Below, piece after piece: positions 1,972 to 64,000 of a stretch of 64,000 bases of DNA (positions are counted from its first letter, which is position 1; every line of letters begins with the position of its first letter). The notes under the pieces are model-generated. The model was not told the origin of the DNA, searched no databases, and saw only the letters and a list, made by a program, of their open reading frames with translations. The translations under genes were made by a program, and so were the position numbers. This DNA is from Rhodobacteraceae bacterium IMCC1909 (GTDB lineage: Bacteria > Pseudomonadota > Alphaproteobacteria > Rhodobacterales > Rhodobacteraceae): the NCBI GenBank assembly GCA_030704425.1, contig JAPDHM010000001.1, forward strand, positions 682,001-746,000, read 5' to 3'.

Positions 1972-2142
1972 ACTAACTTGAGCCGTGCAGGGCGGTTTCG
2001 TAGGCTTGCCGTATGACAAAACACTCCCGATTCAGGTACTTTAAAACGAGCCCTGAGATCATCCGTCTGGCTGTGATGCGTTACGTTCGGTTTCCGCTTT
2101 CATTCCGTAATGTGGAAGATCTTTTGTACGAACGAGGTATTG
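1972..2142 (+). mobile_element. IS6-family 5' fragment, tnp truncated at codon ~43
   Basis: The left part of an IS6-family element, with the transposase start ATG at 2013 (MTKHSRFRYF, then PEIIRLAVM and NVEDLLYERGI). The frame is identical in type to the fragments near 32.9, 26.3 and 57.0 kb. Homology stops abruptly after the bases GAGGTATTG (2142), and the following sequence is the end of a different mobile element. The outer boundary at 1972 is where similarity to the copy at 32,845 begins, so the terminal inverted repeat itself is already lost. Not functional. Confidence 0.8.
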
Positions 2143-2470
2143 GCTGGATGCCAAAGTAGAGCGGTGGAGCGAGTGGAGCAAATTCCATGTAACTTACGCA
2201 ACGCCACCGCGGTGTTAAACGCCGTTTCCCAATTACACCATAATATACGTTGTAAAACATAATGTTATATGTGCTGTTATTGTTTCGGTATAATCGCTCC
2301 AATCGCTCCCCTAGCTCCACCGCTCCCCCCTAATTGGGACGGAAAGCGCGTAACGGAGGCTTGCTCCACCGCTACGCTACCCTCTTTTTGCACCGTGGGG
2401 GCTATCGCGCCTCGCGCTGGACAAGCGCGAACTTCGTCATGCCCTTGTAGTCGCCGGCAAAGGGGGCATC
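2143..2470 (-). mobile_element. inverted, diverged copy of the end of a VirE/prim-pol element
   Basis: Read on the minus strand this segment parallels 56,610-56,914: the last codons of the VirE-type helicase gene (about 2460 to the stop at 2402-2404), then the GGTGGAGC-box region, then the junction into an IS6 fragment. Base-by-base comparison by eye gives clear but imperfect identity (the AT-rich middle has many substitutions), so it is a sister element, not a recent duplicate. Nothing else of that element is present: beyond about 2470 the sequence runs straight into the downstream flank of the sugar dehydrogenase gene. Confidence 0.75.
2150..2386. repeat. iteron-flanked AT-rich segment, candidate origin (sister copy)
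   Basis: GAGCGGTGGAGC and GAGTGGAGC stand side by side at about 2160-2180. The inverse boxes GCTCCAATCGCTCC and CTCCACCGCTCC follow at about 2296-2326, with a further TGCTCCACCGCT near 2370. The roughly 110 bp between the inverted clusters is AT-rich. The arrangement mirrors 56,697-56,894, where it lies directly downstream of the replication genes of a compact element. A role as replication origin is inferred from that position and from iteron-type origins in satellite elements such as P4; it is not shown by the sequence alone. Confidence 0.55.
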
Positions 2471-49793: not shown

Positions 49794-51338
49794 TCAGTTC
49801 TCGTAGAAACCCCAGTCTGACACCGCAAATATAGCAGTCATATCATCAAATAGTATTTCAGGTGGCGTCTTGGTGCCGTACTCTTTGTGTATCTTGGAGC
49901 TACCATCGGAAATGTGTCCCATGATGTATTCCGCTCTAGCCAAATCTATTCTTGCTGCTGCACTCCTGTCTCTTAGCGTGTGCCTTGCTGAGTAGGGGAC
50001 GACTGCTCTGTCTGATATTCCCATGACATTATTTACGATGTTTCTGAGGGCTGCTGAGGCGTTCTCATGGCCCTTCTTACGGTAATGTCTCGGGAATAAA
50101 GGGGCGTCACCTGCAGTTGGTAATTTGTATGATCGAAAGGCATCCAGCACAGGCGACAACAAGGGAACGGCCCTCTCTAGATCACTCTTTTCCATGCGCC
50201 TAATTGAGTTTGTACGATACACAACATGAGGCATATTGCTATCAATTCGTAGGTCTCTGACTTGTAGACCCGCTGCTTCGCTTGTTCTACAACCAGTGTA
50301 GATCATAAGCAGTCCAATCAGTTTAACTTCTTCATCTGATATATTGATAATATTATTTAAATACTCACTTAATTCTTCTGGCTTAAACGAACGTCGTTCT
50401 TCACGCTCATCCTTTTCACGTTTCTTATTGGACAGTCCAGAGAATGGATTGAAGATCGACTGACCCTTCTTCTCTCGGTTCCAACAATTAACCACTGCAC
50501 TAAGTGTATTATTGTATCGGTTGCGTGTACCTGCCTTGGGATACGTTTTCCAAAGCCAGTCCTTCACAGTTTGTCTGTCGAGGTCTTCAAGCCGCATGTT
50601 GTCGCCACCCATGGCTTTTTCAAATCGTTTGAGCAGCCCTCTGGTTTTGGTCTCCCATTTGGCCTCAACATCAGGCAAGCGAATCTTCTCTTGCTTGTTC
50701 GTTTTAATGTAAAGCTCCGCAGCGTCTGACCATGTGGCGTGGGAGGTTACTTTGGTTTCACCTGATACAATTAGGTACTGGGCTATAAGGGGATCATTCG
50801 GGTCTGCTGGTTTGTAGGGGGTCTGGTATCCATATTCTCCCCAGCGACCCGACTGATAGTCTTTTGCTCGTTGTTCTTCATCAATGTACTCATCTAAAAT
50901 GAAATCTAGCAGTAGCTCCTCATGCTCTCGGACTTTAAGTTTCCATTCTTTGATTTTCTGCGGAAAGTTTTGAATTTCTTCGTCGGTGGCGTCTACACCT
51001 AAGGTAGGAGCTTGATCTGGATGAACTCCATATTTGACAGCCATTTGCTTTGCCGACGAAATAGCTGACTGATTAGACGGTTGCGTCTTTGGAACTTCTC
51101 CGTGCAATAATTCCTCTGCTTTACGCTTAGTAGCCTCAAAGCGTTCGTTTTCAGCCGCCCATCTACGCTGAGCAACGGATTCAATCTTGGTATCAAGCGC
51201 CTTCTTCCATTCTGTGAGTAATTTCCCTTTTGAACTTCGGGGGAAATGTTCTTGCAGAGACGGGGGAACACGACGCCGGTACTCAAAGAAGCCTGTTTTG
51301 GACTGGAACAAATAGCTAATTTTGGGAGCCATAGACAA
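49794..51338 (-). CDS. tyrosine integrase of the tRNA-Asn island
   Basis: The 514-residue integrase has an N-terminal DUF6538-like domain (SYLFQSKTGFFEYRRRVPPSLQ), a core-binding domain around 260-330 and a catalytic domain. The catalytic residues are Arg in YTGCRTSEAAG, His and Arg in SARHTLRDR, His in GHISDG and Tyr in HKEYGT. It lies 90 bp from the tRNA-Asn 3' end and reads away from it, the standard layout for an integrase that uses that site. The arm-type boxes lie between it and the tRNA. It appears intact, so the island may still excise. Confidence 0.92.
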   Translation of the reverse strand: MSMAPKISYLFQSKTGFFEYRRRVPPSLQEHFPRSSKGKLLTEWKKALDTKIESVAQRRWAAENERFEATKRKAEELLHGEVPKTQPSNQSAISSAKQMAVKYGVHPDQAPTLGVDATDEEIQNFPQKIKEWKLKVREHEELLLDFILDEYIDEEQRAKDYQSGRWGEYGYQTPYKPADPNDPLIAQYLIVSGETKVTSHATWSDAAELYIKTNKQEKIRLPDVEAKWETKTRGLLKRFEKAMGGDNMRLEDLDRQTVKDWLWKTYPKAGTRNRYNNTLSAVVNCWNREKKGQSIFNPFSGLSNKKREKDEREERRSFKPEELSEYLNNIINISDEEVKLIGLLMIYTGCRTSEAAGLQVRDLRIDSNMPHVVYRTNSIRRMEKSDLERAVPLLSPVLDAFRSYKLPTAGDAPLFPRHYRKKGHENASAALRNIVNNVMGISDRAVVPYSARHTLRDRSAAARIDLARAEYIMGHISDGSSKIHKEYGTKTPPEILFDDMTAIFAVSDWGFYEN

Positions 51339-51344
51339 AACCTG

Positions 51345-51374
51345 TGTACCGTTTATGTACCGATTTTGTGTACC
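51345..51374 (+). repeat. integrase arm-type boxes (tRNA side)
   Basis: Three direct TGTACC words start at 51,345, 51,356 and 51,369. The spacing equals that of the set at 33,491-33,520 inside the other end. They overlap the promoter region of the integrase gene, so integrase binding here could also repress its own transcription. Confidence 0.7.
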
Positions 51375-51423
51375 TTGTCTGTAAATAAGTCAACAATCAT
51401 TGAACATTAGGGGAAATATTATG

Positions 51424-51448
51424 TTAAATGGCTCCGGCGGTAGGGATC
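51424..51448. other. attL-like core within tRNA-Asn
   Basis: These 25 bases are identical to 33,407-33,431. They cover the CCA end, the acceptor strand and part of the T arm of the tRNA and extend five bases beyond it. Confidence 0.88.
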
Positions 51449-51503
51449 GAACCTACGACCAATTGATTAACAGTCAACTGCTCTACCGCTGAGCTACGCC
51501 GGA
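51429..51503 (-). tRNA. tRNA-Asn (GTT)
   Basis: Read on the minus strand, a complete 75-base cloverleaf: acceptor TCCGGCG paired with CGCCGGA, then discriminator G and encoded CCA. The D arm is GCTCAGCGGTAGAGC, the anticodon loop is CTGTTAA with anticodon GTT, and the T arm has GGTTCGATCC. It is the attachment gene of the island to its left. The integrase gene of the second element begins 111 bp from its 5' end. Confidence 0.97.
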
Positions 51504-51510
51504 CCACTGG

Positions 51511-51540
51511 GGGCGGATATATATAACACCATATTTTATT
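51511..51540 (-). promoter_or_regulatory. likely promoter of tRNA-Asn
   Basis: On the minus strand, TTGCAA and TATATA are separated by about 16 bases, with about 14 bases from the latter to the mature tRNA 5' end. This fits a normal sigma-70 promoter, suggesting that the 5' flank of the tRNA is still its own. Confidence 0.5.
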
Positions 51541-51613
51541 GCAATAATTGTTTCTATACTTTACGCTAACCAAACATAAGCTTCCATAACTTGTCTGGCT
51601 GAATGTCTGGCTC

Positions 51614-52852
51614 ATGCTCTCTATAATACATTGCAACATTGATCGCCGCGCAATCGAGAAGGCTACCAAGCAACGAAAGGCTTTGGGGACGAAGGTAACT
51701 CTCGTCGATCCGTCTGGGCTTCGATTGGCCATAAACGCCCAGAGCGCCAGTTGGACATACAATTATCGCCAGCGTGGTGTTGATTACTACGGCAAGCGTC
51801 ATCCACAAAAAACTATTAAGGTTGGTGATCCTGTCACAATGACGCCGCAAGAGGCTAGGTTTCGTGTTGAGGAAATTAAGGCTGAGGTGAGGGCAGGGGG
51901 CGACCCAGTTCACACTATCGAGCAGGCAAAATTAAAGGCTGAACAAGCTGATTTCAAACAACGTGCTTCGTCTTTTTGGTTGGAAACTTATCGCGTTGCC
52001 TTTTTGGGTGATGGTTCAAAGCATAAAAATGATGAGTTCATGCACGCAAGAACAGCTTTGCTTGAGCTGAACCTACTAGAAGCCCCCCCTCAAAGCATTT
52101 CGGCCAAGGTATTACGTGAATTAGTTATGTTACACGAAGCCAAGTTATCCACTGGCCGGCACAGGTTTGGCGCGCTCTCTCGCTTTTTGGACTTTTTAGT
52201 AGATGAGGATGTGATCGAACATAATCCTGCAAGAGATTTATCACGACGCCATAGACCAAAAACGCCGAAGCCGCGCGATACATTTTATTCGATTGATGAA
52301 TTGAAAAAGCTTTGGCAGCCTAGGGAGAAGTTGAGTAGCAATTATTTGTTGTTCGTTAGGTTCATGATTGCCTGCCCCCTGCGTATGTCCGAGGCTGCAA
52401 ATTTAACTGTTAACGAGGTTCTCTTGCCTGAAAAAGAAATCAGGCTTTCCTCATCGATGACAAAAAATAGTGAGTCATTTTCAATGCCGTTAACTGGACT
52501 TATGATTGAACAATTGAATTTTGATAATTCTGACAATGCTTCGCGCCTTTTCCAGCTATCGAGTAAAGTTGGTCAGCCGATGAGCGCTTGGTCTTATTTT
52601 AACAAAACAGTGCGAGTCAGCACTGGCGTCCTGGAGTTCAATTTACACGATTTGAGGCGAACCTTTTCGAGTTTGATGTCAGAGCATTCTGACTTTTCAG
52701 AAAGTCTTGTGGACAGTCTCTTAAATCACAAACGCTCCGCTACACGGCAGGGTGTTATGCGCCATTATCAACATGCAAAAAACCTCAAGCAGCGGCGAGA
52801 GGTTATGGAGTGGTGGTGCGATTTCTTGGAGCGTGAGATAATCAATGGATGA
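51614..52852 (+). CDS. tyrosine integrase with DUF4102 arm-binding domain
   Basis: The 412-residue P4-type integrase has an N-terminal DUF4102 arm-binding domain (VTLVDPSGLRLAINAQSA, then MTPQEARFRVEEIKAEVRAG), a SAM-like core-binding domain (about 115-210) and a catalytic domain. Catalytic residues are Arg in ACPLRMSEAANL, His and Arg in HDLRRTFSS, His in LNHKRSA and Tyr in MRHYQHA. It overlaps the next gene by 8 bp. Integrases of this type normally use tRNA 3' ends, yet this gene lies on the 5' side of tRNA-Asn, so its attachment site is not clear. Confidence 0.9.
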   Translation: MLSIIHCNIDRRAIEKATKQRKALGTKVTLVDPSGLRLAINAQSASWTYNYRQRGVDYYGKRHPQKTIKVGDPVTMTPQEARFRVEEIKAEVRAGGDPVHTIEQAKLKAEQADFKQRASSFWLETYRVAFLGDGSKHKNDEFMHARTALLELNLLEAPPQSISAKVLRELVMLHEAKLSTGRHRFGALSRFLDFLVDEDVIEHNPARDLSRRHRPKTPKPRDTFYSIDELKKLWQPREKLSSNYLLFVRFMIACPLRMSEAANLTVNEVLLPEKEIRLSSSMTKNSESFSMPLTGLMIEQLNFDNSDNASRLFQLSSKVGQPMSAWSYFNKTVRVSTGVLEFNLHDLRRTFSSLMSEHSDFSESLVDSLLNHKRSATRQGVMRHYQHAKNLKQRREVMEWWCDFLEREIING

Positions 52853-53489
52853 AGAATTTGACACTGATATTCTTGCGCTTGCAACGTTGCTTGAATGTGA
52901 TCCGGCTATAGTCCGGATATACTATGAGAAGCACAAAATTAGCGAAGTCTTAGACACCCAAGAAAGTTCAAGATTACTTACTGATGCAAACAACTATTCA
53001 TTGGCTTTCGATAAAGTTCGGTCAGCACGAGCGGCCATTTCTAATTTGTCAAACTTTGAAAAGGCAGTCCTCTCAATTCAAGAATTTGATCCAGAGAGGA
53101 GCCTGAGGGAATTGGAAAAATTTTTGAGTGAAAAAGTTGAGACGCGGCGTGCGATGAGGGCTGAATACTCAATTCAAGGGGGCAAGAACGTCAAAGCCAA
53201 TGCTGTCGCAAATATGGTGCTGGATTTATTTCTTCACTTAAAATTGGAAATCAACTTAACCAAAACTTCCGCAACCAAACACACTTCCGGAAATGCTCCA
53301 AGTTCACATTTTGCTCGCTGTGTAAACGAAGCACTCAAAATTACTCATACAGATGGCCGCCGAAAGAATGTAAACTTTAAAACAAGCGACGGTGAAACTG
53401 CTGTTGGTTCTCATGTCCAGTATGCACATTGGCAAGAGCCAGCTCGTCAAGCAATTGAATTATGGAAAAATAGAACTTCTAAAAAATAA
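52845..53489 (+). CDS. unknown element protein
   Basis: The 214-residue protein is mostly helical and charged (DEEFDTDILALATLLECDPA, later SNFEKAVLSIQEFDPERSLRE). The last part is basic. No domain is recognised. It overlaps the integrase stop by 8 bp, so the two are translated together; this is unusual for an integrase and suggests a role in integration, excision or immunity of the element. Confidence 0.55.
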   Translation: MDEEFDTDILALATLLECDPAIVRIYYEKHKISEVLDTQESSRLLTDANNYSLAFDKVRSARAAISNLSNFEKAVLSIQEFDPERSLRELEKFLSEKVETRRAMRAEYSIQGGKNVKANAVANMVLDLFLHLKLEINLTKTSATKHTSGNAPSSHFARCVNEALKITHTDGRRKNVNFKTSDGETAVGSHVQYAHWQEPARQAIELWKNRTSKK

Positions 53490-53564
53490 AAGAAGTTCCC
53501 CCGTCCCAAGGTGAAGCGCTTTTAGCAACGATAAGTCATCAGACTCTACGAAAAGGATATCGTG

Positions 53565-53807
53565 ATGACTTTTAAGACTGCTCACTGGGAGCCAGAATTG
53601 CCATTGCCACGCAATGCTGACCGCAAAACGCTCGCCGCCATTATCACTCACCATTATTTTCCGATCAGTCATCGGACACTACAGACGTGGCCTTTAACCG
53701 TGCGTCGACCTAACCGCGCATCAGTTTATGACGTGCAAGAGGCCATGGAGTTTGCTGAGAAGAAACTTTTGTCGGCGACAACTTACAAGCAAGCGGCAGA
53801 TTACTAA
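53565..53807 (+). CDS. small putative DNA-binding protein (excisionase/AlpA-like)
   Basis: From the ATG at 53,565, with AAAAGGA upstream, this is an 80-residue protein. ADRKTLAAIITHHYFPISHR followed by TLQTWPLTVRRPN resembles an AlpA/excisionase winged helix with its wing (RRPNRASVYDV). Its stop TAA shares its last base with the next ATG. Proteins of this sort control excision or early transcription in satellites. The assignment rests on pattern only. Confidence 0.5.
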   Translation: MTFKTAHWEPELPLPRNADRKTLAAIITHHYFPISHRTLQTWPLTVRRPNRASVYDVQEAMEFAEKKLLSATTYKQAADY

Positions 53808-54157
53808 TGGCCTTGCATCTCAAAGCCCCCCCGTCTTCGCTATATACCGGCTTAACCCCAGTATATAATCCCAGCCACAGAGAGCGCGATGATAGCTACG
53901 GCAAAGTCATCCTCCAACTTGCCCCACGCTGGCGCATTATCGAATGCCGCAACGCTGAGCAGTGGATCATCCAAAAGCGCTCTGCAGAACCCTTGGACCA
54001 AGGCAAGTGGACTGGCGTCAGCTATGTCGTGTCCCGAGACAAGCTAATCGCGCTCAGTACAAGCGTAGGATTGCTCTCAGAGCCATCTAAGCGGGCTGTG
54101 CTGCAGGCATTACCGCCAACAGCTCGAGAACATACTCTGAAGCAGGTTCGCCTATAA
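53807..54157 (+). CDS. unknown element protein
   Basis: The 116-residue protein has no recognised domain. Its centre (KVILQLAPRWRIIECRNAEQW, then IIQKRSAEPLDQGKWTG) looks like a small beta-rich fold and may be DNA- or RNA-binding. It overlaps the preceding gene by one base and is followed by a stem-loop. It is part of the compact element operon. Confidence 0.5.
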   Translation: MALHLKAPPSSLYTGLTPVYNPSHRERDDSYGKVILQLAPRWRIIECRNAEQWIIQKRSAEPLDQGKWTGVSYVVSRDKLIALSTSVGLLSEPSKRAVLQALPPTAREHTLKQVRL

Positions 54158-54161
54158 CGAA

Positions 54162-54185
54162 ACCGCGCGCCCGAAGGCACGCGGT
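54162..54185. terminator. stem-loop after the small element genes
   Basis: ACCGCGCGCC and GGCACGCGGT pair (one mismatch) around the tetraloop CGAA. No run of T follows, so it may be a processing or attenuation hairpin and not a true terminator. It separates the small early genes from the replication genes. Confidence 0.4.
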
Positions 54186-54270
54186 CTATGAGGCAGGTAA
54201 AGTTTGTAAGCTACTACCGATGCCATCATAGCATGTGTTGCTCGGCGCCGCATCATAAAAGGATGCTATT

Positions 54271-55320
54271 ATGCTGAATTATTTCGAACTTGTCCTGATC
54301 AAGGGACACAAAGACACGCGCGTCAAAAGCGGCCAAAGCTATGACACCATAACGCTCGCTGAAATCGCACAAATGGCTGAAGTGCCAAATCGCCTGTGCA
54401 AGCTGGACGCACCTGCGCTTATCGCCTCGACCTACAATGCCCCAGATGCGCGCTCCCATGCCGCTCAACGCAAGCATGGATGTTTCCACGCATTTGTTCT
54501 GGACGTGGACGAAGGCAATACTGGCCTCAAACAGCTCAATCAGGCTTTATCAGCGATCTGCGGCAACTGCGCACGCATAGTCTACTCAACCAGCAGTGCG
54601 ACGGTTGATGCGCCTAAATGGCGTGCCATCATTCCGTTCAAATCTCCGGTAACTGGGCAGCAATATGAACAGCTACAACAGGCCCTGTTCGCATCACTTG
54701 CAGCCCACAACATCACATGTGATCAGGCTATGAAGGGTGCAGCTCAAATGTCGTTCTTGCCGAATGTACCGCCAGACAAGCGCGGTGAGGATGGTGCGCC
54801 AAAATATTATGAATATTTAGTGTGCTTAGCAGACAATCTTTCGCATCCACCTCAATGCCTTTTGGACTTGGCAGAGCAAATTGCACAGCGAGATGTAGAG
54901 GCACAGTTAATTGCTGCTGAAGTTGCTAAAGATAGAGCGCAACAAAGGCGGAAGCATCGTGAACATTCGGAGATGCTATCACCCATTGAGCAGTTCAATG
55001 CAGACCATGATCTAACACAGGTGCTGTTAGAATGCGGCTGGGAGCCACGAGGGCGGGCTTGCTATGCGTCGCCCTATTCTCATAGCAAAGGGCCATCAGT
55101 CTATGTTTACGACCAGCGTGCAGTAAGTTTCACCAGCAGTGATGCTGGACAGCTTGGTAAAGAGACGGCCAACGGCTGGACGACCTATGACGCTTGGGAC
55201 GTCTTTGTGGCGCGCGTACACGGCGGTAGCGAGCGGGCTGCTCTTGAGAATTACTGCGAAGTGTCCGGCTACAACCAAGTCAAACTGCATACCATTGTTA
55301 AAAAGTGGGGGCAGTCGTGA
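54271..55320 (+). CDS. primase-polymerase-like replication protein
   Basis: The 349-residue protein has an archaeo-eukaryotic-primase-like N-terminal domain. The acidic pair is in AFVLDVDEG at about residue 78, STSSATVDAPKWRAIIPF corresponds to the next conserved strand, and QMSFLPN is the third element. A PriCT-like C-terminal domain (GWEPRGRACYASPYS, then DAWDVFVARVHGG) follows. Such proteins prime and start replication of satellites and plasmids. Its TGA overlaps the ATG of the VirE-type helicase gene, so the pair is translationally coupled and works as one replication module. Confidence 0.75.
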   Translation: MLNYFELVLIKGHKDTRVKSGQSYDTITLAEIAQMAEVPNRLCKLDAPALIASTYNAPDARSHAAQRKHGCFHAFVLDVDEGNTGLKQLNQALSAICGNCARIVYSTSSATVDAPKWRAIIPFKSPVTGQQYEQLQQALFASLAAHNITCDQAMKGAAQMSFLPNVPPDKRGEDGAPKYYEYLVCLADNLSHPPQCLLDLAEQIAQRDVEAQLIAAEVAKDRAQQRRKHREHSEMLSPIEQFNADHDLTQVLLECGWEPRGRACYASPYSHSKGPSVYVYDQRAVSFTSSDAGQLGKETANGWTTYDAWDVFVARVHGGSERAALENYCEVSGYNQVKLHTIVKKWGQS

Positions 55321-56663
55321 TGGAACCGAATAAACTTCAACACACCGCAGTCGATACATCGAAAAAACCTGTTGAGTTCGGCGATGGTCGTGTGGCGCCT
55401 AACCTCGAGCAGTTGAAACTCGACGTTTCTAAAGATGGTATAGTGAAATCTCTCAGTAACATGGTCACGATACTGGACGGATTGAGTTGTTGGTCTGGAG
55501 TGTTTGCTTTCGACGAGCTTGCAGAACAGATTATGGTCCTCCGGCCCCTATCCAACAGCCGCGGCAATCCGAACTTCCACAATCCTCGGCCATTGCGAGA
55601 TGAAGATATCAGCACCGTCAAGATTTGGCTAAATCGTAAACTAAAATGGGCGACAGTGACTGGAAGTGATATATTCGATGCCATTCAGCTAGCAGCTCGT
55701 GAACGTATTATCTCACCCATCCGTCATTATCTTGAGGGTCTGCCCCCCATGGAGGTGGACGAGGCGCGTGATTTTCTCACAGAGGTGTTGAACACGCACT
55801 TCAGCCTACGCCGTTACGGCGAGCATCCAGATGCAATACGATATTCGGAACTGGTATTTCGCAAATGGTTAATCTCGGCTGTTGCACGCGCTCTGCGGCC
55901 TGCGTGTAAGGCTGACCACGTGTTGATACTTGAAGGCGCACAGGGCGCAGGTAAATCGACAGCCATACGTATTTTGTGCGGTGACGCATACTTTGGAGAC
56001 AGCCTACCAAAGCTCGATAGTAAAGATGCGGCTGACTACGTGCGCGGCAAGTGGATAATTGAGCTGGCAGAACTGTCATCCGTGTCGAAGACGGAGGTCG
56101 AGCATGTGAAGGCCTTTATCACTCGCACAGAGGAGAAGTTCAGGCCAGCCTATGGGCGCAACGAAATCGCCTACCAGCGCCGCTGCGTGTTCATTGGAAC
56201 CACAAACCGCACGGACTACCTGCGTGATGAGACAGGCAACCGCCGTTTTTGGCCCATTAAGCTGGAGACAGTCGACACAAAAGCAATAGAGCGGGACCGT
56301 GATAAGATTTGGGCAGCGGCGAAGGCGCTCTATGGTGCTGGCGAGCAGTGGTGGTTGACAGATGCCGAGGCGCTGCTGGCAGAGGCACAGCAGGAACGGC
56401 GCACAGCCGTGGACCCTCTTTACGATGAGGTGGCAGAATGGCTCAGCTCAACTAAAAAGATGGAAACCTGCATGCGAGAAATTATGCAACAGGTAGCCTT
56501 TGTCGATGAGGCGACATCAGCCGCTGCTATAACACCACTTCTGCAGCATCGCATCCGCGGCGCGTTAAATGCGGCAGGCTTTGAAAGCACGGGACGGAAG
56601 TTCAGCGCAGGCGACTACAAGGGCATGACGAAGTTCGCGCTTGTGCATCGCGAGGCGCGATAG
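55320..56663 (+). CDS. VirE-type (virulence-associated E) superfamily 3-like helicase
   Basis: From the ATG at 55,320, which overlaps the primase stop, this is 447 residues; an alternative GTG lies at 55,305. The C-terminal half is the VirE domain: Walker A in EGAQGAGKST at about residue 208, Walker B-like GKWIIELAELSSVSKTEVE, sensor-type CVFIGTTNRTDYLRDETG and the arginine-finger segment NRRFWPI. Proteins like this unwind origin DNA in satellites and prophages. The putative origin lies directly behind the stop codon. The final residues MTKFALVHREAR are duplicated at 2402-2440. Confidence 0.88.
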   Translation: MEPNKLQHTAVDTSKKPVEFGDGRVAPNLEQLKLDVSKDGIVKSLSNMVTILDGLSCWSGVFAFDELAEQIMVLRPLSNSRGNPNFHNPRPLRDEDISTVKIWLNRKLKWATVTGSDIFDAIQLAARERIISPIRHYLEGLPPMEVDEARDFLTEVLNTHFSLRRYGEHPDAIRYSELVFRKWLISAVARALRPACKADHVLILEGAQGAGKSTAIRILCGDAYFGDSLPKLDSKDAADYVRGKWIIELAELSSVSKTEVEHVKAFITRTEEKFRPAYGRNEIAYQRRCVFIGTTNRTDYLRDETGNRRFWPIKLETVDTKAIERDRDKIWAAAKALYGAGEQWWLTDAEALLAEAQQERRTAVDPLYDEVAEWLSSTKKMETCMREIMQQVAFVDEATSAAAITPLLQHRIRGALNAAGFESTGRKFSAGDYKGMTKFALVHREAR

Positions 56664-56696
56664 CGCCCCACGGTCCAAAAAGAGGGGAGCGTAGTG

Positions 56697-56894
56697 GTGG
56701 AGCAAGCCTCCGTTACGCGCTTTCCGCCCCTATTAGGGGGGAGCGGTGGAGCGGGTGGAGCAAATATACCAAAACAATTACAGCATATATAACATTATGT
56801 TTTACATAGTTTATTACGGTCTAATAGGGAAACGGTATCTTGGACCGCGGAGGCGTTGCGTAAGTTACATGGAATTTGCTCCACTCGCTCCACC
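56697..56894. repeat. iteron-flanked AT-rich segment, candidate element origin
   Basis: GGTGGAGC occurs at 56,697, 56,746 and 56,755, and its inverse GCTCCACC (or GCTCCACT) at 56,878 and 56,887. About 115 bp between the inverted clusters is very AT-rich (for example around ATATATAACATTATG). It sits just downstream of the primase/helicase genes, where P4-like satellites keep their origin or cis-replication region. A related copy with conserved boxes and a diverged core lies at 2150-2386, suggesting the boxes are under selection. Confidence 0.62.
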
Positions 56895-56914
56895 GCTCTA
56901 CTTTGGCATTCAGA

Positions 56915-57099
56915 CAATGCCTCGTTCGTGCAAAAGATCTTCCACATTACGGAATGAGAGCGGAAACCGAACGTACAGCGCCACAGCCAAGCGGATTGTC
57001 TCAGGGCTCGTTTTAAAGTACCTGAATGGAGAGTGTTTTGTCATTTGCGGATTCTACAAATACACCCTGCTCGCTTCAACCGAGTTTAATCTGACAGTA
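56915..57099 (-). mobile_element. IS6-family 5' fragment, tnp broken after codon ~43
   Basis: On the minus strand the IS6 left end (complement of GAGTTTAATCTGACAGTACC, to 57,099) and tnp start (codon complement at 57,042-57,044) run to GAGGCATTG at 56,915, where the element end begins. The gap from here to the SDR gene (57,100-57,364) holds no gene. Confidence 0.8.
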
Positions 57100-57364
57100 C
57101 CCACAGACGCAATTCTTTGGTTTGCTTTGTTTGTGAAACTTGTCTTTACATCTATCGTTGTGGATGGCTGCTTTCAGAATTCTTTTACGTCAATGACAAT
57201 CTCCGACTGGGCAAAGTTCTTTGGATAGCAGGAGACCTTCTGAGATGAGTCGCCGCACATTGCCACGAGGATCAGTGACCAATATACCTGTTAACTACGG
57301 GTTTTGGCTTGAAAGCCAGTAGGAGGTATGCCTTTATTTGTTTGAACAAAATTGGAACTTGCTG

Positions 57365-58144
57365 ATGGATTTAGATATCGCCGGGAGAAAAGCATTGTTG
57401 TGTGCATCCAATGCGGGGCTCGGATTGGCCTGTGCCAAGGCGGTGGCTGCAGAAGGTGTTGATGTTGTCATAAATGGTCGCAATCCTGAAAAAATAAGAG
57501 CGGCACAGGCTGAAGTTGAAGCCGTTGCCCGGGGGCGCGTTTCCGCTGTTCAGGCCGATGTTTCGACCGAGGAAGGAAGAGCGGCTCTGCTCGCGGCCTG
57601 CCCGGATGCGGACATCCTGTTGAACAATAATGCCGGTCCAAAGCCAAAACGTTTTCTGGATACAAAGCGGCAAGATTGGGAAGAGACGTACCATTCCAAC
57701 TATTTGGCGCCCATTCTTTTAGTACACGCGGTAATTCCCGGAATGATCGAACGGGGGTTCGGACGCATCATTAATATTACCTCTGCCATGGTTACAACTC
57801 CGAGGCCACATTTAACGTTAAGTGCGGGTGCCCGAGCGGGCCTTACGGCCTCGTTGAAAGCATTATCATTCGAAGTCGCGCCTCACAATGTGACCATCAA
57901 CAACATGTTGCCCGAACGCATCGACAGTCCGCGGCAAATCGAAATGGCTTATGCTGTGATGAAACGCGACGGTTTGACCTTTGAGGAAGCGCGGGCAGCA
58001 CAGGTACAATCAATTGCAGCAAAACGCCTGGGCCGGCCAGAAGAATTCGGTGCTATGTTTGCTTTTTTGTGTTCTAGTTATGCAGGTTACATTTCCGGCA
58101 GCAATATGCATCTCGATGGCGGCTCTTATCCAGGGTTGGTGTAA
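57365..58144 (+). CDS. atypical SDR oxidoreductase (Tyr/Lys replaced)
   Basis: From the ATG at 57,365 this is a 259-residue SDR with a Rossmann core: ALLCASNAGLGLACAKAVAAEG, NGRNPEK, NNNAGP and the C-terminal SGSNMHLDGGSYPGLV. The catalytic Ser is in INITSAM, but the normal Tyr and Lys of YxxxK are Ser and Arg (LTLSAGARAGL). This matches an SDR subfamily with LxLSNxxRxG that I recall from alphaproteobacteria, so the change is probably functional. Its stop overlaps the start of the DUF3500 gene by one base. Confidence 0.83.
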   Translation: MDLDIAGRKALLCASNAGLGLACAKAVAAEGVDVVINGRNPEKIRAAQAEVEAVARGRVSAVQADVSTEEGRAALLAACPDADILLNNNAGPKPKRFLDTKRQDWEETYHSNYLAPILLVHAVIPGMIERGFGRIINITSAMVTTPRPHLTLSAGARAGLTASLKALSFEVAPHNVTINNMLPERIDSPRQIEMAYAVMKRDGLTFEEARAAQVQSIAAKRLGRPEEFGAMFAFLCSSYAGYISGSNMHLDGGSYPGLV

Positions 58145-59400
58145 TGGCTGACTTTGCGGATTACCGCCCATATTTGCCCACTGCGGAGCAATCACGAATA
58201 GTGGGTGACGATGCGATCTCCCATGCGAAGGGGCGGCTGGCAATTCCACGCATCGAGAACCTGTTCAACCAATGGGGTGAACTTGCAAAGCAGGAGTTTC
58301 GAGGCATCACCGTTGATGGTGAACGTACATCAGGTCTTTACTCCTTACGGGATGAGGGCGCCCCCGTTGACGATATGGTTGCAGCGGCGGGAAGGTTGCT
58401 CGAGAGTCTCAGTGCAGACGAGCGGAAGCGGGGATTACAGGAGGTCGACAGCAATTTGTGGCGGCAGTGGCAGAATACCGAGATTTTTGTCGAAAAACAC
58501 GGATTGCGGCTCGAATTTCTTTCCGATGAAACTCGCGAACTGGTCTTACGGCTTCTACGTAGCTCCCTTAGTGACCAGGGCTACCAAAACACAGTTGGAG
58601 TGATGCAACTGAATGCTTTTCTGGGCAATGCCATCGGCGCGCCAGGTGTGCTTGGCGAATGGAGTTACAATTTCTGCATTTATGGCAAGCCTTCTAACGT
58701 TAACCCCTGGGGTTGGCAGCTTTGGGGACATCACCTTGGCCTAAATTGCCTGGTGATTGGCGGGCAAATGGTACTCACGCCAAGCTTTCAGGGCGCTGAG
58801 ATCTGCTTCGCCGATGAAGGCCGCTTCAAGGGATTGCAGATGTTTCAGGATGAGCACCGCCGGGGGCTGGATCTGTTCAATTCCCTATCGGCTCAAAACC
58901 AACAAAAGGCGCGATTGGGTTTTGATTTGGGTGGCTCTGATCTTCCGGAAGGTCGTGTGCATTTCGCGGATTACCTCATGTTGGGAGGCGCACATCAGGA
59001 CAACAGGGTCGTGCCTTTAGAGGGCCTTAACGCAGCAAAAATGACGGGGTCGCAATGCAAATGCCTGCTTGATCTTGTGAATGCCTATGTCGGAGCCATG
59101 CCGGATGGACCGCGCCAGGCGAAAATGGCGGACGTTGAGCGGCATCTAAATCATACGCATTTTTGCTGGATCGGAGGAAATGGTCCCACCACGCCCTTTT
59201 ACTACCGTATTCAAAGTCCGGTGATATTCATCGAGTTCGATCATCATGCAGGTGTGTTCTTGACCAATAAAGAACCGCTGGGCTTCCATGTGCATACTGT
59301 GGTCCGCAGTCCCAATGGAAACGATTATGGGTTGGACGTTTTACGACAACACTATGCGCACTCTCACAAAAACGCTCACAACCATGTTAACCACGCCTGA
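58144..59400 (+). CDS. DUF3500 protein
   Basis: The 418-residue protein matches DUF3500: FRGITVDGERTSGLYSL, WNFCIYG-like WSYNFCIYGKPS, GWQLWGHHLGLN, and the C-terminal HTHFCWIGG, FIEFDHHAGV and PLGFHVHTVVRSPNGNDYG, rich in His and Asp that could bind metal. The function is unknown; members occur in catabolic clusters. It is translationally coupled to the SDR gene and faces the LysR gene tail-to-tail. Confidence 0.8.
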   Translation: MADFADYRPYLPTAEQSRIVGDDAISHAKGRLAIPRIENLFNQWGELAKQEFRGITVDGERTSGLYSLRDEGAPVDDMVAAAGRLLESLSADERKRGLQEVDSNLWRQWQNTEIFVEKHGLRLEFLSDETRELVLRLLRSSLSDQGYQNTVGVMQLNAFLGNAIGAPGVLGEWSYNFCIYGKPSNVNPWGWQLWGHHLGLNCLVIGGQMVLTPSFQGAEICFADEGRFKGLQMFQDEHRRGLDLFNSLSAQNQQKARLGFDLGGSDLPEGRVHFADYLMLGGAHQDNRVVPLEGLNAAKMTGSQCKCLLDLVNAYVGAMPDGPRQAKMADVERHLNHTHFCWIGGNGPTTPFYYRIQSPVIFIEFDHHAGVFLTNKEPLGFHVHTVVRSPNGNDYGLDVLRQHYAHSHKNAHNHVNHA

Positions 59401-59415
59401 GGTCGGGTGCTGATC

Positions 59416-60318
59416 CTAACGTTCGGAATATTTGGCCGTTGCCGACTTGACGCATTCCATGAAACCGGTCAGTGCCCTGGAGGGTTTGGTGAAACTACGA
59501 ATGGCCAGGCCTGCGTTTGATTGCCACAAAGTGCCGTTGAAATCGATTTTCACAAGACCTTTTTGTTGTGCAAGTTCCAACATCTGATCGGGAATGTGCG
59601 CGACGTAATTCCCACCTCTTAGAGTTTCAAGAAGACTATTGATCGAAGTGGTTTCCAGGCTGATTTTTGGTGGTTTGAGACCGAATGTGGCGAAGAAAGC
59701 GGATATTCGATGGGTGCCCACAAAATCGTCCTTCAAAGCCAGCCAGCGTTGTGGAGCCAGGTCGATTGCAGAGACATTGCCTTGTGATGCCAAAGGATGG
59801 CTGGCATCGCTGACAATGATATGATCCATCTTAAACAAAGGAATTTTTGTGAGCTCTGATCTGTCTGGAAAATCTAGCGAAATGCAAATCAGATCCAGAT
59901 CACCCGAAACCAATGCCGGAACCAATGTGTCGATAACGCCTCCCACCAATATCATGCGGATATCTGGATATGTCTTCTGAAATTCAGCGACGACAGGTGG
60001 CAGAATCCTGACCAGCCAGTTTGGAGTTGCGCCAATCCGAAGTCTGCCATGCTCCGCGCCCGACAGTTCGCCAATACGTGTTATGGCATGCCGATATTCG
60101 TTTTCCATAACCCGAGCGTGGTGTTCCAGTATTTCGCCAGCCTTGTTCAGTTGCACACCTTTTGAAATTCGCGTGAACAATTTCGTGCCGAGGTCGTTTT
60201 CCAGTTTTCGAATACTCTTGGTCAGGGCCGGCTGGCTGACATTTAATGCGTCGGCTGCAGCCGTTATGCTGCCCATGTCGACCACCTTCAAGAAATTGCG
60301 AAGCACCCGAGAAAACAT
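59416..60318 (-). CDS. LysR-type transcriptional regulator
   Basis: From the ATG at 60,318 this is a 300-residue LysR protein: winged helix with FLKVVDMGSITAAADALN, VSQPALTKSIRKLENDLG and LFTRISKGVQLNKAGE, then a type-2 periplasmic-binding-like sensor domain. A frame start at 60,354 falls inside the palindromic operator and is less likely. It is divergent from the FAD hydroxylase gene, with the operator between, and should control that gene, probably in response to the aromatic substrate. Confidence 0.9.
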   Translation of the reverse strand: MFSRVLRNFLKVVDMGSITAAADALNVSQPALTKSIRKLENDLGTKLFTRISKGVQLNKAGEILEHHARVMENEYRHAITRIGELSGAEHGRLRIGATPNWLVRILPPVVAEFQKTYPDIRMILVGGVIDTLVPALVSGDLDLICISLDFPDRSELTKIPLFKMDHIIVSDASHPLASQGNVSAIDLAPQRWLALKDDFVGTHRISAFFATFGLKPPKISLETTSINSLLETLRGGNYVAHIPDQMLELAQQKGLVKIDFNGTLWQSNAGLAIRSFTKPSRALTGFMECVKSATAKYSER

Positions 60319-60351
60319 ATTCAGCTCCAGCCTCTTAAAAACGTCAACTGA

Positions 60352-60368
60352 CATAACCGTTGGTTATG
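60352..60368. promoter_or_regulatory. palindromic LysR-type operator
   Basis: Perfect 7-bp arms CATAACC and GGTTATG surround GTT. This is a T-N11-A type site lying upstream of both the LysR gene (start 60,318) and the FAD hydroxylase gene (start 60,504). Binding is inferred from symmetry and place. Confidence 0.7.
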
Positions 60369-60503
60369 GCATCGATGATAATTAGAATTTGACCATACAC
60401 TCCCTGCTGCATAATTTTGGTAAACCACTCCAAAAATCATAGTAATTTGATACACAACTGGCTCTCAAACCCGGCTTCACAGAAAATTAAGGCCATAAAT
60501 TCC

Positions 60504-62030
60504 ATGCATGCAACCATTAAGAATGAAAATCTTATCTATGATGCTCTGATCGTAGGCTATGGCCCCGTCGGGGCGACGCTGGCCAATTTGCTGGGTCAGG
60601 GCGGTTATCGCGTCGCAATTGCCGATACTTACCGCGATGTATTCGATAAGCCTCGTGCCATTAATCTTGACCATGAAGCGCTGCGCCTTTTTCAACGCAT
60701 TGATCTTGCGGAGCAAATTTCTGATGGTAGTGCTCTTCATCCCGGTACCGAATATCGCGGCGTGGACGGCGGGGTGATCAAGGCGATGGGTTCTGCGCCG
60801 CCGCCCTATCTGCTGGGTTGGCCTCCCAATATCATGTTTGTTCAGCCTGAGGCTGAGCGAAAGCTGCGATCCCGCGTTGATGCCCTCGAATCAGTCGACG
60901 TTTTTTTGGAGCATAAGGCCACTGTCTTCGAGCAAACCAGTGAACAGGTGAGTGTGACTTTCGACGCACCATTAGGGCAAACGACACTGCATGCCCGCTA
61001 TCTGATCGGCTGTGATGGAGCGAACAGCCCTACAAGGGAGTGGATGGGTACCACTATGACTGATTTGGGATTTTCCGAACATTGGGTGGTTGTTGATGCT
61101 CGGGTCGAGCGCGATATACCCTTGCCATCACTGACTACTCAATATTGCTTCCCAGACGGCCCGACTACTTATGTGATTTGTTCAGGCAATTTACGCCGCT
61201 GGGAAATGAGAATCATGCCTGGTGAAAACGTCGATGATTATCGCGATCTGGACAAGATCAAGGCGCGCCTGGAGCCATTCGTGGATGTTACGGCGTTGGA
61301 ATTCTGGCGCAAATCTGTTTATCATTTCAATGCGCGAGTGGCAGATGTCTGGCGCGATCGACGTGTTTTCCTTGCCGGTGATGCAGCGCACACGATGCCG
61401 CCATTTTTTGCGCAGGGTCTGAATTCGGGCCTGCGCGATGCGGCCAATCTGTTTTGGAAACTATCGTATGTTTTAGACAGTAAAGCGAATGACAGTTTGC
61501 TGGACACATACCAAACGGAGCGACGACCACACATACTGGTGCTGACTGAAATAGCCAAGGATCTGGGTAAGATAATCGGTGAAACCGATATGGAGAAAGC
61601 TGTCAATCGTGATGCGTTGTTGCGCAAGGAAATGGAAAATAAAACCCAGATAGTAAACCGGCAATCATTGGTTCCCCCAATCGCTGACGGGTTTTTGGAC
61701 GACAAGGGTGGGGAATTTTCGGGCGCGCTGGCACCACAGCCGCGTGTTTCAAAAGAAGATAAAGAATTTTTGCTGGACGACTTATTGTCTGGGTTTTCGA
61801 TGGTTGAGCTTAGTGGATCGGACGGAGCACTCCGGATCACAATTGATCTTGAGACCGCCAATCCCCAACAATCAAGTTGCCAGGACACTGGAGCTATGTT
61901 GACCCAATGGATGCACGAACGGGGGTTAACGATGATGATTATTCGCCCTGATGGTGTTGTCTGGACAGCTGGAACCGATGCCGCTGGATCGGTCAACAGA
62001 TTTCAGACCGCTTTCTTCAACCTGCGATAG
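60504..62030 (+). CDS. MhpA-like FAD-dependent aromatic hydroxylase
   Basis: From the ATG at 60,504 this is 508 residues. The FAD motifs of class A flavoprotein monooxygenases are present: ALIVGYGPVGATLANLLG, RAINLDHEALRLFQRIDL, CDGANSPTREWMG and GDAAHTMPPFFAQGLNSGLRD. QYCFPDGPTTYVICSG and RRWEMRIMPGE are close to 3-(3-hydroxyphenyl)propionate hydroxylase. It adds oxygen to a phenolic ring using NAD(P)H. An upstream extension to 60,417 is possible but not family-like. The sulfatase gene follows after 11 bp, so they form an operon. Confidence 0.86.
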   Translation: MHATIKNENLIYDALIVGYGPVGATLANLLGQGGYRVAIADTYRDVFDKPRAINLDHEALRLFQRIDLAEQISDGSALHPGTEYRGVDGGVIKAMGSAPPPYLLGWPPNIMFVQPEAERKLRSRVDALESVDVFLEHKATVFEQTSEQVSVTFDAPLGQTTLHARYLIGCDGANSPTREWMGTTMTDLGFSEHWVVVDARVERDIPLPSLTTQYCFPDGPTTYVICSGNLRRWEMRIMPGENVDDYRDLDKIKARLEPFVDVTALEFWRKSVYHFNARVADVWRDRRVFLAGDAAHTMPPFFAQGLNSGLRDAANLFWKLSYVLDSKANDSLLDTYQTERRPHILVLTEIAKDLGKIIGETDMEKAVNRDALLRKEMENKTQIVNRQSLVPPIADGFLDDKGGEFSGALAPQPRVSKEDKEFLLDDLLSGFSMVELSGSDGALRITIDLETANPQQSSCQDTGAMLTQWMHERGLTMMIIRPDGVVWTAGTDAAGSVNRFQTAFFNLR

Positions 62031-62041
62031 GAGCGCTCCGT

Positions 62042-63652
62042 TTGAATATTCTATTCCTGATGGTGGATCAGCTTCGTTACGATTATCTGGGCTGCACTGG
62101 TCATAAAACCATCAAGACACCCAACATTGATGCTCTCGCCAGACAAGGTGTTCGGTTTGACAGAGCTTATGTCCAGTCACCCCTTTGTGGCCCGAGCCGA
62201 ATGAGTGCATATACCGGGCGCTATTGTCGAAGCCACGGTGCCACCTTCAACGGCACGCCGATAGGTGTAGGAGAATTGACTTTAGGCGACCATTTACGGC
62301 TGGTCGGTATGGATACGGTGTTGTGCGGCAAAACGCATGCAGCGCCGGACAAGCGCGGAATGCAACGGCTTGGAATCGAGGCCGATAGCAAGATAGGTCG
62401 CAGAATTGCTGAATGTGGATTTGATGTGTGGGAAAGAATGGATGGTGAGTTTCCAGCCACTCAGCCTGACCCCAACAACGCTTACCAGATCTATCTGCGT
62501 TCAAAAGGCTATGACAGCGACAATCCGTGGCACGATTTTGCCAATTCCGGAGAGGATTCGGATGGTAAGATCTTGAGCGGCTGGCAGCTGCAGAATGCGA
62601 CCAAACCTGCCCGTATTGCAGCAGAGGACAGTGAAACGGCATGGCTCACAACCCGAGCGATGGATTACCTGGATCAAGTTGGCGACATGCCCTGGTGCCT
62701 GCATGTGAGCTATATCAAACCGCATTGGCCTTATGTTGCGCCTACTCCTTACCATCAGATGTATGGCCCCGAAGACATCCAACCTGTTGTGCGCTCCGAA
62801 GGCGAACATACCGACCCGCACCCGGTGTTGGGCGCGTTTCAAGCCGAGCGGGTTGGAAGGGCATTCTCAAGGGCGGAGGTCCGCGAAGCAGTGATTCCAG
62901 CCTATATGGGATTGATTACTGAGATCGATGATCAAATAGGGCGGCTGATTGCGCAATTGGAGACCACTGGCCAACGCGACAATACTCTGATTGTCTTCAC
63001 GTCCGACCATGGTGACTATTTGGGTGATCACTGGCTCGGGGAGAAGGAGTTGTTTCACGATGCCTCTGTTCGCGTGCCATTGATCGTGGTGGATCCACGT
63101 GCTGAAGCGATGGCAACTCGTGGCACTGTCTGCAATGCGCTTGTTGAGGCGATCGACCTTGTGCCGACATTCGTGGAATACGCCGGTGGTGAACCACGGA
63201 CTGAAATTTTGGAAGGCAAATCACTGAAACCATTAATCCAGGGGCAGGCCACCGAAGTGCGACAGCATGTATTCAGCGAGTATGACTATTGCTTCAAATC
63301 CGCCCGCAAAAAACTAAACCAACCTATTGGTGATTGTCGTCTGGCGATGATCTGTGATGACCAGTTCAAGCTAATCCACGCCGAGGGATTCCGTCCGATG
63401 CTCTTTGATTTAAAGAAGGACCCCGGTGAACTGACCGATCTGGGCAAAAGTTTGGATCACAAAGAGATCTGCGACAACCTGATGGAGCAACTAAACTCCT
63501 GGTACAGACAACATCACAATAAAACGATGCACTCCAACGCAGACATTGTTGCGCGCGAAAACGGCGCGGTACGACGTGGTATTTATCTGGGGTTTTGGGA
63601 CCAGGAAGAGATAGACGAGGCCGCGCAGTTAGCCGCGTCGAAAAATTATTAG
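62042..63652 (+). CDS. sulfatase/phosphonate-monoester-hydrolase family enzyme
   Basis: The 536-residue hydrolase starts at a TTG with AGGAG upstream. The nucleophile motif is SPLCGPSRMSAYTGR with Cys49 in CxPSR, which is converted to formylglycine. Metal ligands are Asp9 and Gln10 in MVDQLRYD (DQ in place of DD) and FTSDHGDYLGDHWLGEKEL. DQ and the SDHGDYLGDHWLGEKELFHD block are typical of choline-sulfatase/phosphonate-monoester-hydrolase types. Together with the aromatic hydroxylase it suggests removal of a sulfate or phosphonate group from a substituted aromatic compound; no formylglycine-generating enzyme gene is in the window. Confidence 0.87.
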   Translation: MNILFLMVDQLRYDYLGCTGHKTIKTPNIDALARQGVRFDRAYVQSPLCGPSRMSAYTGRYCRSHGATFNGTPIGVGELTLGDHLRLVGMDTVLCGKTHAAPDKRGMQRLGIEADSKIGRRIAECGFDVWERMDGEFPATQPDPNNAYQIYLRSKGYDSDNPWHDFANSGEDSDGKILSGWQLQNATKPARIAAEDSETAWLTTRAMDYLDQVGDMPWCLHVSYIKPHWPYVAPTPYHQMYGPEDIQPVVRSEGEHTDPHPVLGAFQAERVGRAFSRAEVREAVIPAYMGLITEIDDQIGRLIAQLETTGQRDNTLIVFTSDHGDYLGDHWLGEKELFHDASVRVPLIVVDPRAEAMATRGTVCNALVEAIDLVPTFVEYAGGEPRTEILEGKSLKPLIQGQATEVRQHVFSEYDYCFKSARKKLNQPIGDCRLAMICDDQFKLIHAEGFRPMLFDLKKDPGELTDLGKSLDHKEICDNLMEQLNSWYRQHHNKTMHSNADIVARENGAVRRGIYLGFWDQEEIDEAAQLAASKNY

Positions 63653-63658
63653 CAGCTA

Positions 63659-64000
63659 GACGGGTGCTGTCAGACGAATGAGAACTCGCATCGGATCGCT
63701 GGCTCAGCCTGAATCTATGCGCTCAATAATTGGCGCCACTCAGTAAGAGCGGCGGTTCGATTGAGCTTGAAATTGTCTCGTGAGTAGAAGTGGCGCTCCT
63801 GATTGAAATGGTTGTGGACTGAAGAGTGGACGGCAGCGAACTTTTGCAGACATCGCATCTGTCGGAAGCGGAGCATAGCAAGTTCTCGTCGTCAAAACGG
63901 CAAGTGGGAATTTTCCGCCCTATTGTTTACCCAGCGGCCCGTTTCCTGCCGATCCGCGGTGCCAACAACTTTCATTGCAGCGCCATAGGAACGTAGTTTG
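63659..64000 (-). pseudogene. IS6-family transposase, right part, with nonsense codon (runs off the edge)
   Basis: Reading the minus strand from 64,000, the frame gives SYGAAMKVVGTADRQETG, RWVNNRAENSHLPF, a TGA, then RRELAMLRFRQMRCLQKFA, VHSSVHNHFNQERHF and KLNRTAALTEWRQLLSA, stop at 63,715-63,717. The TGA stands where the family has CGA for Arg in PFRRRE. The right end with CATTCGTCTGACAGC lies at 63,659-63,680. Unlike the other copies here, this one keeps the central transposase region, so it may be nearly full length, but the nonsense codon kills it. Confidence 0.83.

Follow-up and report, generated by a model that had tools for sequence, protein, structure and literature searches.

The 64,000-nt stretch of Rhodobacteraceae bacterium IMCC1909 DNA analysed here (contig JAPDHM010000001.1, positions 682,001 to 746,000; "the window") contains six core open reading frames (ORFs) that lie head to tail on the plus strand between 51614 and 56663 (Table 1). 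They encode a tyrosine integrase (int2), the product of an int-overlapping gene, a short protein that we call the alpA-position protein, a conserved core ORF, a primase-polymerase and a VapE helicase. A candidate replication origin follows. The locus is probably one end, the int-proximal one, of an integrative element of 19.1 kb at tRNA-Asn that combines a satellite-type replication core with metabolic cargo. Coordinates are window positions unless prefixed; C1: and C2: denote contigs of the same genome (G000).

The gene list of the first-pass annotation (an integrase, three unknown genes, a primase-polymerase and a helicase) was borne out, with all ORFs on the plus strand. Its description of the genes as tightly overlapping holds only in part. 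Int and the gene at 52845 overlap by 8 nt, the ORFs at 53562 and 53807 by 1 nt, and the primase gene and vapE by 16 nt from a GTG at 55305 or by 1 nt from an ATG at 55320, but gaps of 72 and 113 nt lie elsewhere in the core. The label VirE was wrong, because the gene is vapE (virulence-associated protein E-like domain) and not the Agrobacterium virE. Only int2 and VapE have Pfam matches; the other four core proteins have none. The product of the int-overlapping gene also lacks NCBIfam and PADLOC matches. The counterpart of this gene overlaps int by 8 nt in strain HTCC2083 and by 4 nt in the congener G011. Pfam and PHROG scans of the core proteins recognised no structural, terminase or conjugation gene, as the annotation had said of structural and conjugation genes. 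The capsid genes of a larger prophage were likewise not recognised, which left the element reading intact. A defence function was considered and set aside: among nine proteins, PADLOC gave only JetA2 for the primase (E 0.001) and GajA for VapE (E 0.041), neither convincing.

Table 1. Positions of the core genes, the borders, the cargo and a relic copy
Feature	Position	Strand	Remarks
Tyrosine integrase with P4-type arm domain (int2)	51614..52852	+	PF00589 3.6e-12 (Phage_integrase), PF13356 9.2e-10 (Arm-DNA-bind_3)
Int-overlapping gene	52845..53489	+	position of PICMI gene iolg; one weak PHROG, function unknown
81-aa alpA-position protein, putative excisionase or activator	53562..53807	+	homologues in HTCC2083, G242, G422
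Conserved core ORF, unknown function	53807..54157	+	between alpA-position gene and primase
AEP-fold primase-polymerase (predicted)	54271..55320	+	structure model and Foldseek
VapE/Rep-type AAA+ helicase, likely initiator	55305..56663	+	PF05272 1.4e-75, PF19263 6.3e-8 (DUF5906)
Candidate origin: GGTGGAGC-type boxes, inverted sets around A+T-rich spacer	56691..56908	.	directly after vapE
tRNA-Asn copy, int-proximal island end	51429..51503	-	ARAGORN
Paired arm-type repeat TGTCTGGCTGAATGTCTGGCT	51592..51612	+	one base before int start codon
Truncated 5' part of IS6-type transposase gene	56915..57102	-	inside island, not core
Short-chain dehydrogenase	57338..58144	+	PF13561 4.4e-38
DUF3500 protein	58144..59400	+	PF12006 5.6e-98
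LysR-type regulator	59416..60354	-	PF03466, PF00126
FAD-binding protein, probably monooxygenase	60417..62030	+	PF01494 6.6e-57
Sulfatase	62042..63652	+	PF00884 5.7e-47
Second sulfatase	beyond window		PF00884 1.1e-49
DctM/NMT1-type transporter	beyond window		L023; DctM, NMT1_3
Relic of another copy: last vapE codons, origin, same transposase junction	2082..2455	-	89% identity over 375 nt

The replication module

The structure model of the primase (predicted local distance difference test score, pLDDT, 86.6) matched best, in Foldseek, the archaeo-eukaryotic primase (AEP) domain of the cyanophage S-2L PrimPol (6zp9; E 3e-5, probability 1.00). No other PDB entry reached an E-value of 0.001; the matches that came next were to LigD polymerase domains and Prim-PolC. 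Judged by the model, the protein is a primase of the AEP fold. We aligned 51 sequences, comprising 49 viral relatives (53 of 80 viral primase loci were taken and 4 duplicates skipped), the window protein and that of HTCC2083. D78, D80 and D151 were invariant, and from the fold these residues would be metal ligands. A check for acidic catalytic residues, proposed with the first-pass annotation, thus did not speak against its primase. In PHROGs the primase has weak matches to primases (best 1.7e-10) and VapE strong ones to helicases. The best PDB sequence match of VapE is 7pds_A (6.4e-33). Its depositors called it "Similar to D. nodosus vapE", and we take it to be a SaPI (Staphylococcus aureus pathogenicity island) Rep. 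Between the window and G011, vapE has a dN of 0.030 and a dS of 0.258 (dN/dS 0.12), which indicates purifying selection.

The primase is 34 to 36% identical to proteins of five roseophages, CRP-811, CRP-821, CRP-822, CRP-823 and CRP-831. Among phage and plasmid records it matched 82 of phages (5 Roseobacter, 77 Vibrio) and none of a plasmid, and it has relatives in at least 134 viral-contig stretches. VapE matched 744 phage and 120 plasmid records, all below 60% identity. Direct matches of this kind do not trace the module to a plasmid or to a phage. One VapE protein is on a 4.3-kb Gluconobacter plasmid, which places such a protein on a small replicon and says nothing further. In cellular genomes, the primase has matches in 4 of 195 related genomes (its own included, two of them weak) and one more among further genome contigs, int2 in 2 of 293 at E <= 1e-40, and the alpA-position protein in 3 of 394 at E <= 1e-6, each count again including its own genome.

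The first-pass annotation had placed an A+T-rich segment between inverted boxes straight after the primase/VapE pair, and this segment was confirmed. GGTGGAGC occurs 8 times in the window, where 1.35 occurrences are expected and the maximum in 100 shuffles was 5. Four lie at 56696-56894, three in the relic copy at 2163-2370 and one elsewhere. A 25-nt inverted repeat (56741-56765 and 56874-56898; 96% complementary, 108 nt apart) encloses a spacer of 65% A+T. In all five origin copies the spacer is 113 to 115 nt long and 63 to 70% A+T; some copies have degenerate box edges. Since four of the five come from one genus, the weight of the argument falls on HTCC2083, the only distant copy, where the spacer sequence has diverged and its length has been kept. 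We take 56691-56908 to be a replication origin and predict that VapE binds there. In Gram-negative phage-inducible chromosomal islands (PICIs), origins are described as two iteron sets flanking an A+T-rich region (PMC6092414), and SaPI origins as lying directly downstream of rep (PMC7581432). A second origin relic, with the vapE end, lies at C2:812316-812713 (86% identical).

The boxes do not appear to be a feature of related phages; none was found in the 25.7 of 30.3 kb of CRP-821 that we examined. There was also none in an 8.7-kb Vibrio phage stretch or in plasmid pGO128, and none of 85 viral-contig loci had three or more. They are absent from the G422 element and from the examined G242 stretch, where the replication proteins differ.

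Borders, cargo and sister elements

The tRNA-Asn copy beside int2 has an intact partner outside the window, at C1:752487-752561. The two loci are 98% identical over 98 nt, which include an 18-nt leader. We take the partner to be the native tRNA, because its 5' neighbour is the same in six of six congeners (G017, G011, G001, G002, G008 and G012), whose tRNA-Asn loci have no match to island proteins within about 10 kb on each side. The repeat TGTCTGGCTGAATGTCTGGCT before int2 recurs once in the region, with different middle bases, at C1:752418-752438; 48 nt separate it from the native tRNA-Asn 3' end. We infer that the two are integrase arm sites. The paired repeats and tRNA copies place the island's other end beyond the window. 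From tRNA copy to tRNA copy it measures 19,133 bp, and its far end lies 6.6 kb past the window end. No further arm pair (at up to 2 mismatches) and no tRNA-Asn piece (BLAST E <= 0.001) turned up in its interior, which suggests that core and cargo form a single unit.

The paired repeat, searched as TGTCTSGCTNNNYGTCTSGCT, was found exactly at 7 sites. These lie in 4 of the 121 genomes searched, each a member of this genus; a reversed-pattern control gave 1 site in the 121. One site precedes int2, and three lie by intact tRNA-Asn genes in G000, G001 and G017 (gaps of 48, 48 and 49 nt). Another, in G011, adjoins a fragment (64 nt) of the tRNA-Asn locus. The site at G000 C1:70716 is beside about 18 nt that, judged by eye, match a tRNA-Thr 3' end. 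The remaining site is 47 nt from the 3' end of an intact tRNA-Lys in G000 (L022:6481-9714, C2). The second origin relic is 2.7 kb from this tRNA-Lys, as in a decayed element of the same kind. Exact pairs also occur outside the 121 genomes, in HTCC2083 and G242, and pairs with one mismatch each in G422. A different repeat is found beside tRNA-Asn in G011 and G002, and therefore other integrases probably also use this tRNA.

These borders disagree with the first-pass annotation, which had described a compact element ending at 56914. That position is where a truncated transposase gene begins, without the mark of an attachment site. Of 43 own-genome matches to the query, 40 are the transposase piece alone, and 18 of these 40 start at exactly the 56915 base. 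An intact homologue in G011 matches DDE_Tnp_IS240 (PF13610, 5.2e-42), a group that we take to be IS6. An 82-nt piece of the transposase also occurs at 26275-26356 and 32950-33031.

The tRNA-Asn at 51429 was considered as a plain 3'-end attachment site of int2 and rejected, because the element lies on the tRNA's 5' side. Comparison with HTCC2083, G422 and the native locus showed int at the opposite end from the native tRNA. At its 3' side the left tRNA copy adjoins another integrase gene, int1 (49794-51338; DUF6538 and Phage_integrase). Farther to the left, 25 nt of exact tRNA-Asn 3' end (33407-33431) lie behind a terminator-like stretch (from 33370) that resembles the one at the native tRNA. 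From the sequence, successive islands seem to have accreted at tRNA-Asn. The far ends L077, L078, L080, L082 and L083, and more weakly L079 and L073, have about 110 nt with a conserved G+C-rich block before the arm pair, which could be an excision-factor or packaging site. A G+C-rich stretch at 43260-43345 resembles this DNA and has no pair; it is perhaps the truncated end of another element.

The cargo is metabolic (Table 1). In 60 other genomes, including 19 congeners and with at most 4 candidates scored in each, no match spanned 57338-63652, which suggests a recent arrival. Partial matches, mostly to the sulfatase part and 63 to 83% identical, were found in 25 of the 60.

Strain HTCC2083 (L020) has an element of the same plan. 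On its left are a tRNA-Thr piece of about 62 nt, an arm pair (L020:7486), int (46% identical) and an overlapping gene. The alpA-position gene, the core ORF (50%), the primase (55%), VapE (69%) and the origin follow. After these come cargo genes that include a DctM transporter, an amidase and hydantoinase A and B proteins. At the far end an arm pair, 46 nt and an intact tRNA-Thr complete an island of 29.2 kb. In another genus, G422 has a 9.2-kb element with one-mismatch arm pairs at both ends, one before int and one 46 nt from a tRNA-Arg; the second of its two tRNA-Arg copies lies beyond int. The element holds int, the overlapping gene, the alpA-position gene and the core ORF. In a further genus, G242 has a tRNA-Arg piece and an exact pair before an int gene that a transposase interrupts. 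The same small genes and a DctM transporter are also present, and no far end was seen in the 10.5 kb examined.

Int2 is 46 to 48% identical to the integrases of these three elements. The alpA-position protein is 61 to 63% identical to its homologue in HTCC2083, 58% in G242 and 51% in G422, and the core ORF has homologues in HTCC2083, G011, G242 and G422 (blastp E 2e-36 to 8e-7). The replication proteins differ, being a fused Prim-Pol/D5-type protein in G242 and a zinc/Toprim/AAA_25 protein in G422. Int, the overlapping gene, the alpA-position gene and the core ORF thus stay together while the replication genes vary between elements.

In the congener G011, a primase (76% identical), VapE (95%) and origin of the window type are accompanied by an integrase only 22% identical to int2, and no tRNA was found within the 20 kb examined. 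Its primase gene is mosaic: the N-terminal DNA is 81% identical to HTCC2083 and 54% to the window, and near the C terminus it is 97% identical to the window. A DNA methylase (PF01555), a large serine recombinase (PF00239, PF07508) and a protein just under the Terminase_6C cut-off (22.2 against 22.6 bits) lie beside the G011 core (L021:685-5900); this is perhaps another mobile element or a prophage remnant.

Likeness to known satellites and the alternatives

The P4-type satellite has a single alpha primase-helicase protein and P4 capsid-size genes. The window element has separate AEP and VapE genes, and no capsid gene was recognised. It is closer to Gram-negative PICIs, with which it shares int, a gene at the alpA position, and a primase and Rep helicase followed by an origin with two iteron sets (PMC6092414). 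This order of primase, rep and origin is present in the window element, as judged by sequence and model. Unlike PICIs it uses a tRNA-Asn site and holds some 13 kb of additional DNA that includes metabolic genes, and its alpA-position protein matches none of the AlpA families. No PICI interference gene or terS was recognised among its scanned proteins.

The phage-inducible chromosomal minimalist islands (PICMIs) of Vibrionaceae share the order of int, int-overlapping gene, alpA, often one gene, and primase, and have no capsid-remodelling gene (PMC10803314). The PICMI model uses PF00589 and others for the integrase, PF05930 or PF12728 for AlpA, and PF13148 and PF19263 for the primase. In the window element the integrase matched, as did PF19263 in VapE (33.7 bits; cut-off 27.6), and PF13148 and the AlpA families did not; the G011 counterpart hits the two AlpA families with scores under the cut-off. 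PICMIs are described as integrating next to fis, averaging 6.7 kb in Vibrionaceae, and occurring complete only in Vibrio genomes (PMC10803314). In contrast, the window element is at tRNA-Asn, is 19.1 kb long (its sisters 9.2 and 29.2 kb) and has separate primase and helicase genes. It thus departs from PICMIs in site and size, and no PICI-type interference or packaging gene was found in it. PICMIs are further characterised by packaging as concatemers by a virulent helper phage, and Gram-negative PICIs by induction and transfer through a helper phage.

Two groups of islands resemble it in other respects. Tycheposons, known from Prochlorococcus and also Methylophilaceae, are described as having a tRNA border, a tyrosine recombinase, metabolic cargo and a size of 4 to 200 kb (PMC10872708). 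Compared with that description alone, the window element agrees in all four, and it differs in having a replication module and an origin of PICI/SaPI type. The Pseudomonas tmRNA (transfer-messenger RNA) islands I23, I44 and I55 share a tyrosine integrase at an RNA gene, AlpA, variable cargo and, for I55, which a jumbo phage transduces, satellite behaviour (PMC12595487). They differ in their tmRNA target, in an AlpA at the end opposite the integrase and in predicted phage defence in all three cargos, and the word "primase" is absent from the main text of that report. From its sequence, the window element resembles PICIs in its replication module and PICMIs in gene order, and it fits the quoted tycheposon description.

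We propose that the integrase and the alpA-position protein, perhaps with the product of the int-overlapping gene, would excise the island as a circle. VapE would bind the inverted GGTGGAGC boxes, melt the A+T-rich spacer and load as a helicase, and the primase would prime replication. The replicated DNA and its metabolic cargo might then reach other cells, most likely in helper-phage particles because the island has no recognised packaging or conjugation gene, and would integrate at a tRNA gene, leaving an intact tRNA. No terminase, capsid, relaxase, conjugation or interference gene was recognised among the scanned proteins, which beyond the window were ORFs of at least 120 aa, with small ORFs and undescribed genes outside the scope; the search did not extend to an origin of transfer (oriT) or to packaging sites. 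It is plausible that the helper would be virulent, since PICMIs, which likewise lack identifiable packaging genes, are reported to be spread by a virulent phage (PMC10803314) and almost all CRP-822-type roseophages are reported to lack an integrase (PMC12629253).

A compact 5.4-kb element (51504-56914) beside unrelated, accreted island DNA is quite improbable. The core genes and origin do end near 56908, and G011 and HTCC2083 share window sequence only to about there, as would be expected of a compact element too. Satellites of similar size are known, such as PICMI115 at 6.1 kb (PMC10803314), and HTCC2083 has a direct repeat of 11 nt (7453 and 12640) that would bound a unit of 5.2 kb. However, that repeat is near chance, since HTCC2083 has 9 pairs of 11-mers against 5.4 in shuffles. 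Framing direct repeats gave no compact unit in the window either. Common words there are only 9 to 11 nt, and the longest shared by the int flank (51339-51700) and 56601-64000 (11 nt; 51680/58719) was reached in 65 of 200 shuffles, so no repeat stands out. Arm pairs and tRNA copies lie instead at 51.4-51.6 kb and past the window, and two other islands have them at their far ends as well. Two further alternatives are compatible with the 19.1-kb extent. That the island is a dead, immobile relic is unlikely: a truncated transposase lies inside it, and its genome has several broken ends and two origin relics, but all core ORFs are open, vapE is under the constraint described above, both arm pairs are intact, and the cargo appears to be recent. 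Movement without phage, by natural transformation, vesicles or conjugative mobilisation, with replication serving stability after excision, is a possibility to be taken seriously, if not the one that we favor. The lack of recognised packaging, terminase, capsid and interference genes speaks for it, as does the absence of a whole element from the 85 viral-contig loci. Yet no relaxase was recognised either, the gene order and the Rep helicase followed by an origin are as in phage satellites (PMC10803314, PMC6092414), and the primase is related to roseophage proteins.

Several observations weigh against the 19.1-kb satellite-like element as we describe it. The left tRNA-Asn copy may be part of the island of int1 and not of int2; on that side HTCC2083 has a tRNA piece of about 62 nt, against full-length copies in the window and G422. 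The cargo could have accreted through other events. The window's int-overlapping gene has no detectable homology to its counterparts in other elements. The alpA-position protein has no Pfam family match, and a two-sequence structure model, tried for likeness to AlpA, was too poor (pLDDT 50.7) and was not used. The 85 viral-contig loci, made up of 80 of the at least 134 primase relatives and 5 VapE relatives, include none with both proteins, and none of them matched the core ORF, int2 or the alpA-position protein. When viral contigs were scanned with only int2 or only the window primase, no relative appeared. The excised circle, the particle and the transfer are steps that we infer and have not observed. 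In one of the 85 loci, on viral contig L131, a primase relative lies side by side with a G011-type integrase (39% identical).

On balance, the evidence supports the integrative element of the first-pass annotation, with its own replication module and origin and a satellite-like gene order, in the larger form of a 19.1-kb island. That annotation also called it apparently little-described, and our literature search of titles and abstract openings likewise found no description of this element family. We tentatively suggest, at somewhat short of even confidence, that it belongs to an undescribed satellite-like family in the Rhodobacteraceae, with HTCC2083 as a named strain that holds one element. 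The fixed mobility module would consist of the integrase, the int-overlapping gene, the alpA-position protein, the core ORF, paired arm repeats and tRNA targets. The interchangeable replication modules would be AEP primase and VapE with an iteron origin, fused Prim-Pol/D5-type, or zinc/Toprim/AAA_25, and the cargo would include transport and catabolic genes.

If this is true, the repeat pair just outside tRNA 3' ends would be a simple signature for locating such islands, and the conserved origin would make it possible to test a VapE helicase directly, by biochemistry, on the origin to which it belongs. The element would be a satellite-type vehicle for metabolic genes, tycheposon-like but with a recognisable origin and replication proteins. 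Roseobacter-type bacteria would then hold self-replicating tRNA islands that are built like minimal satellites and have room for metabolic gene clusters.

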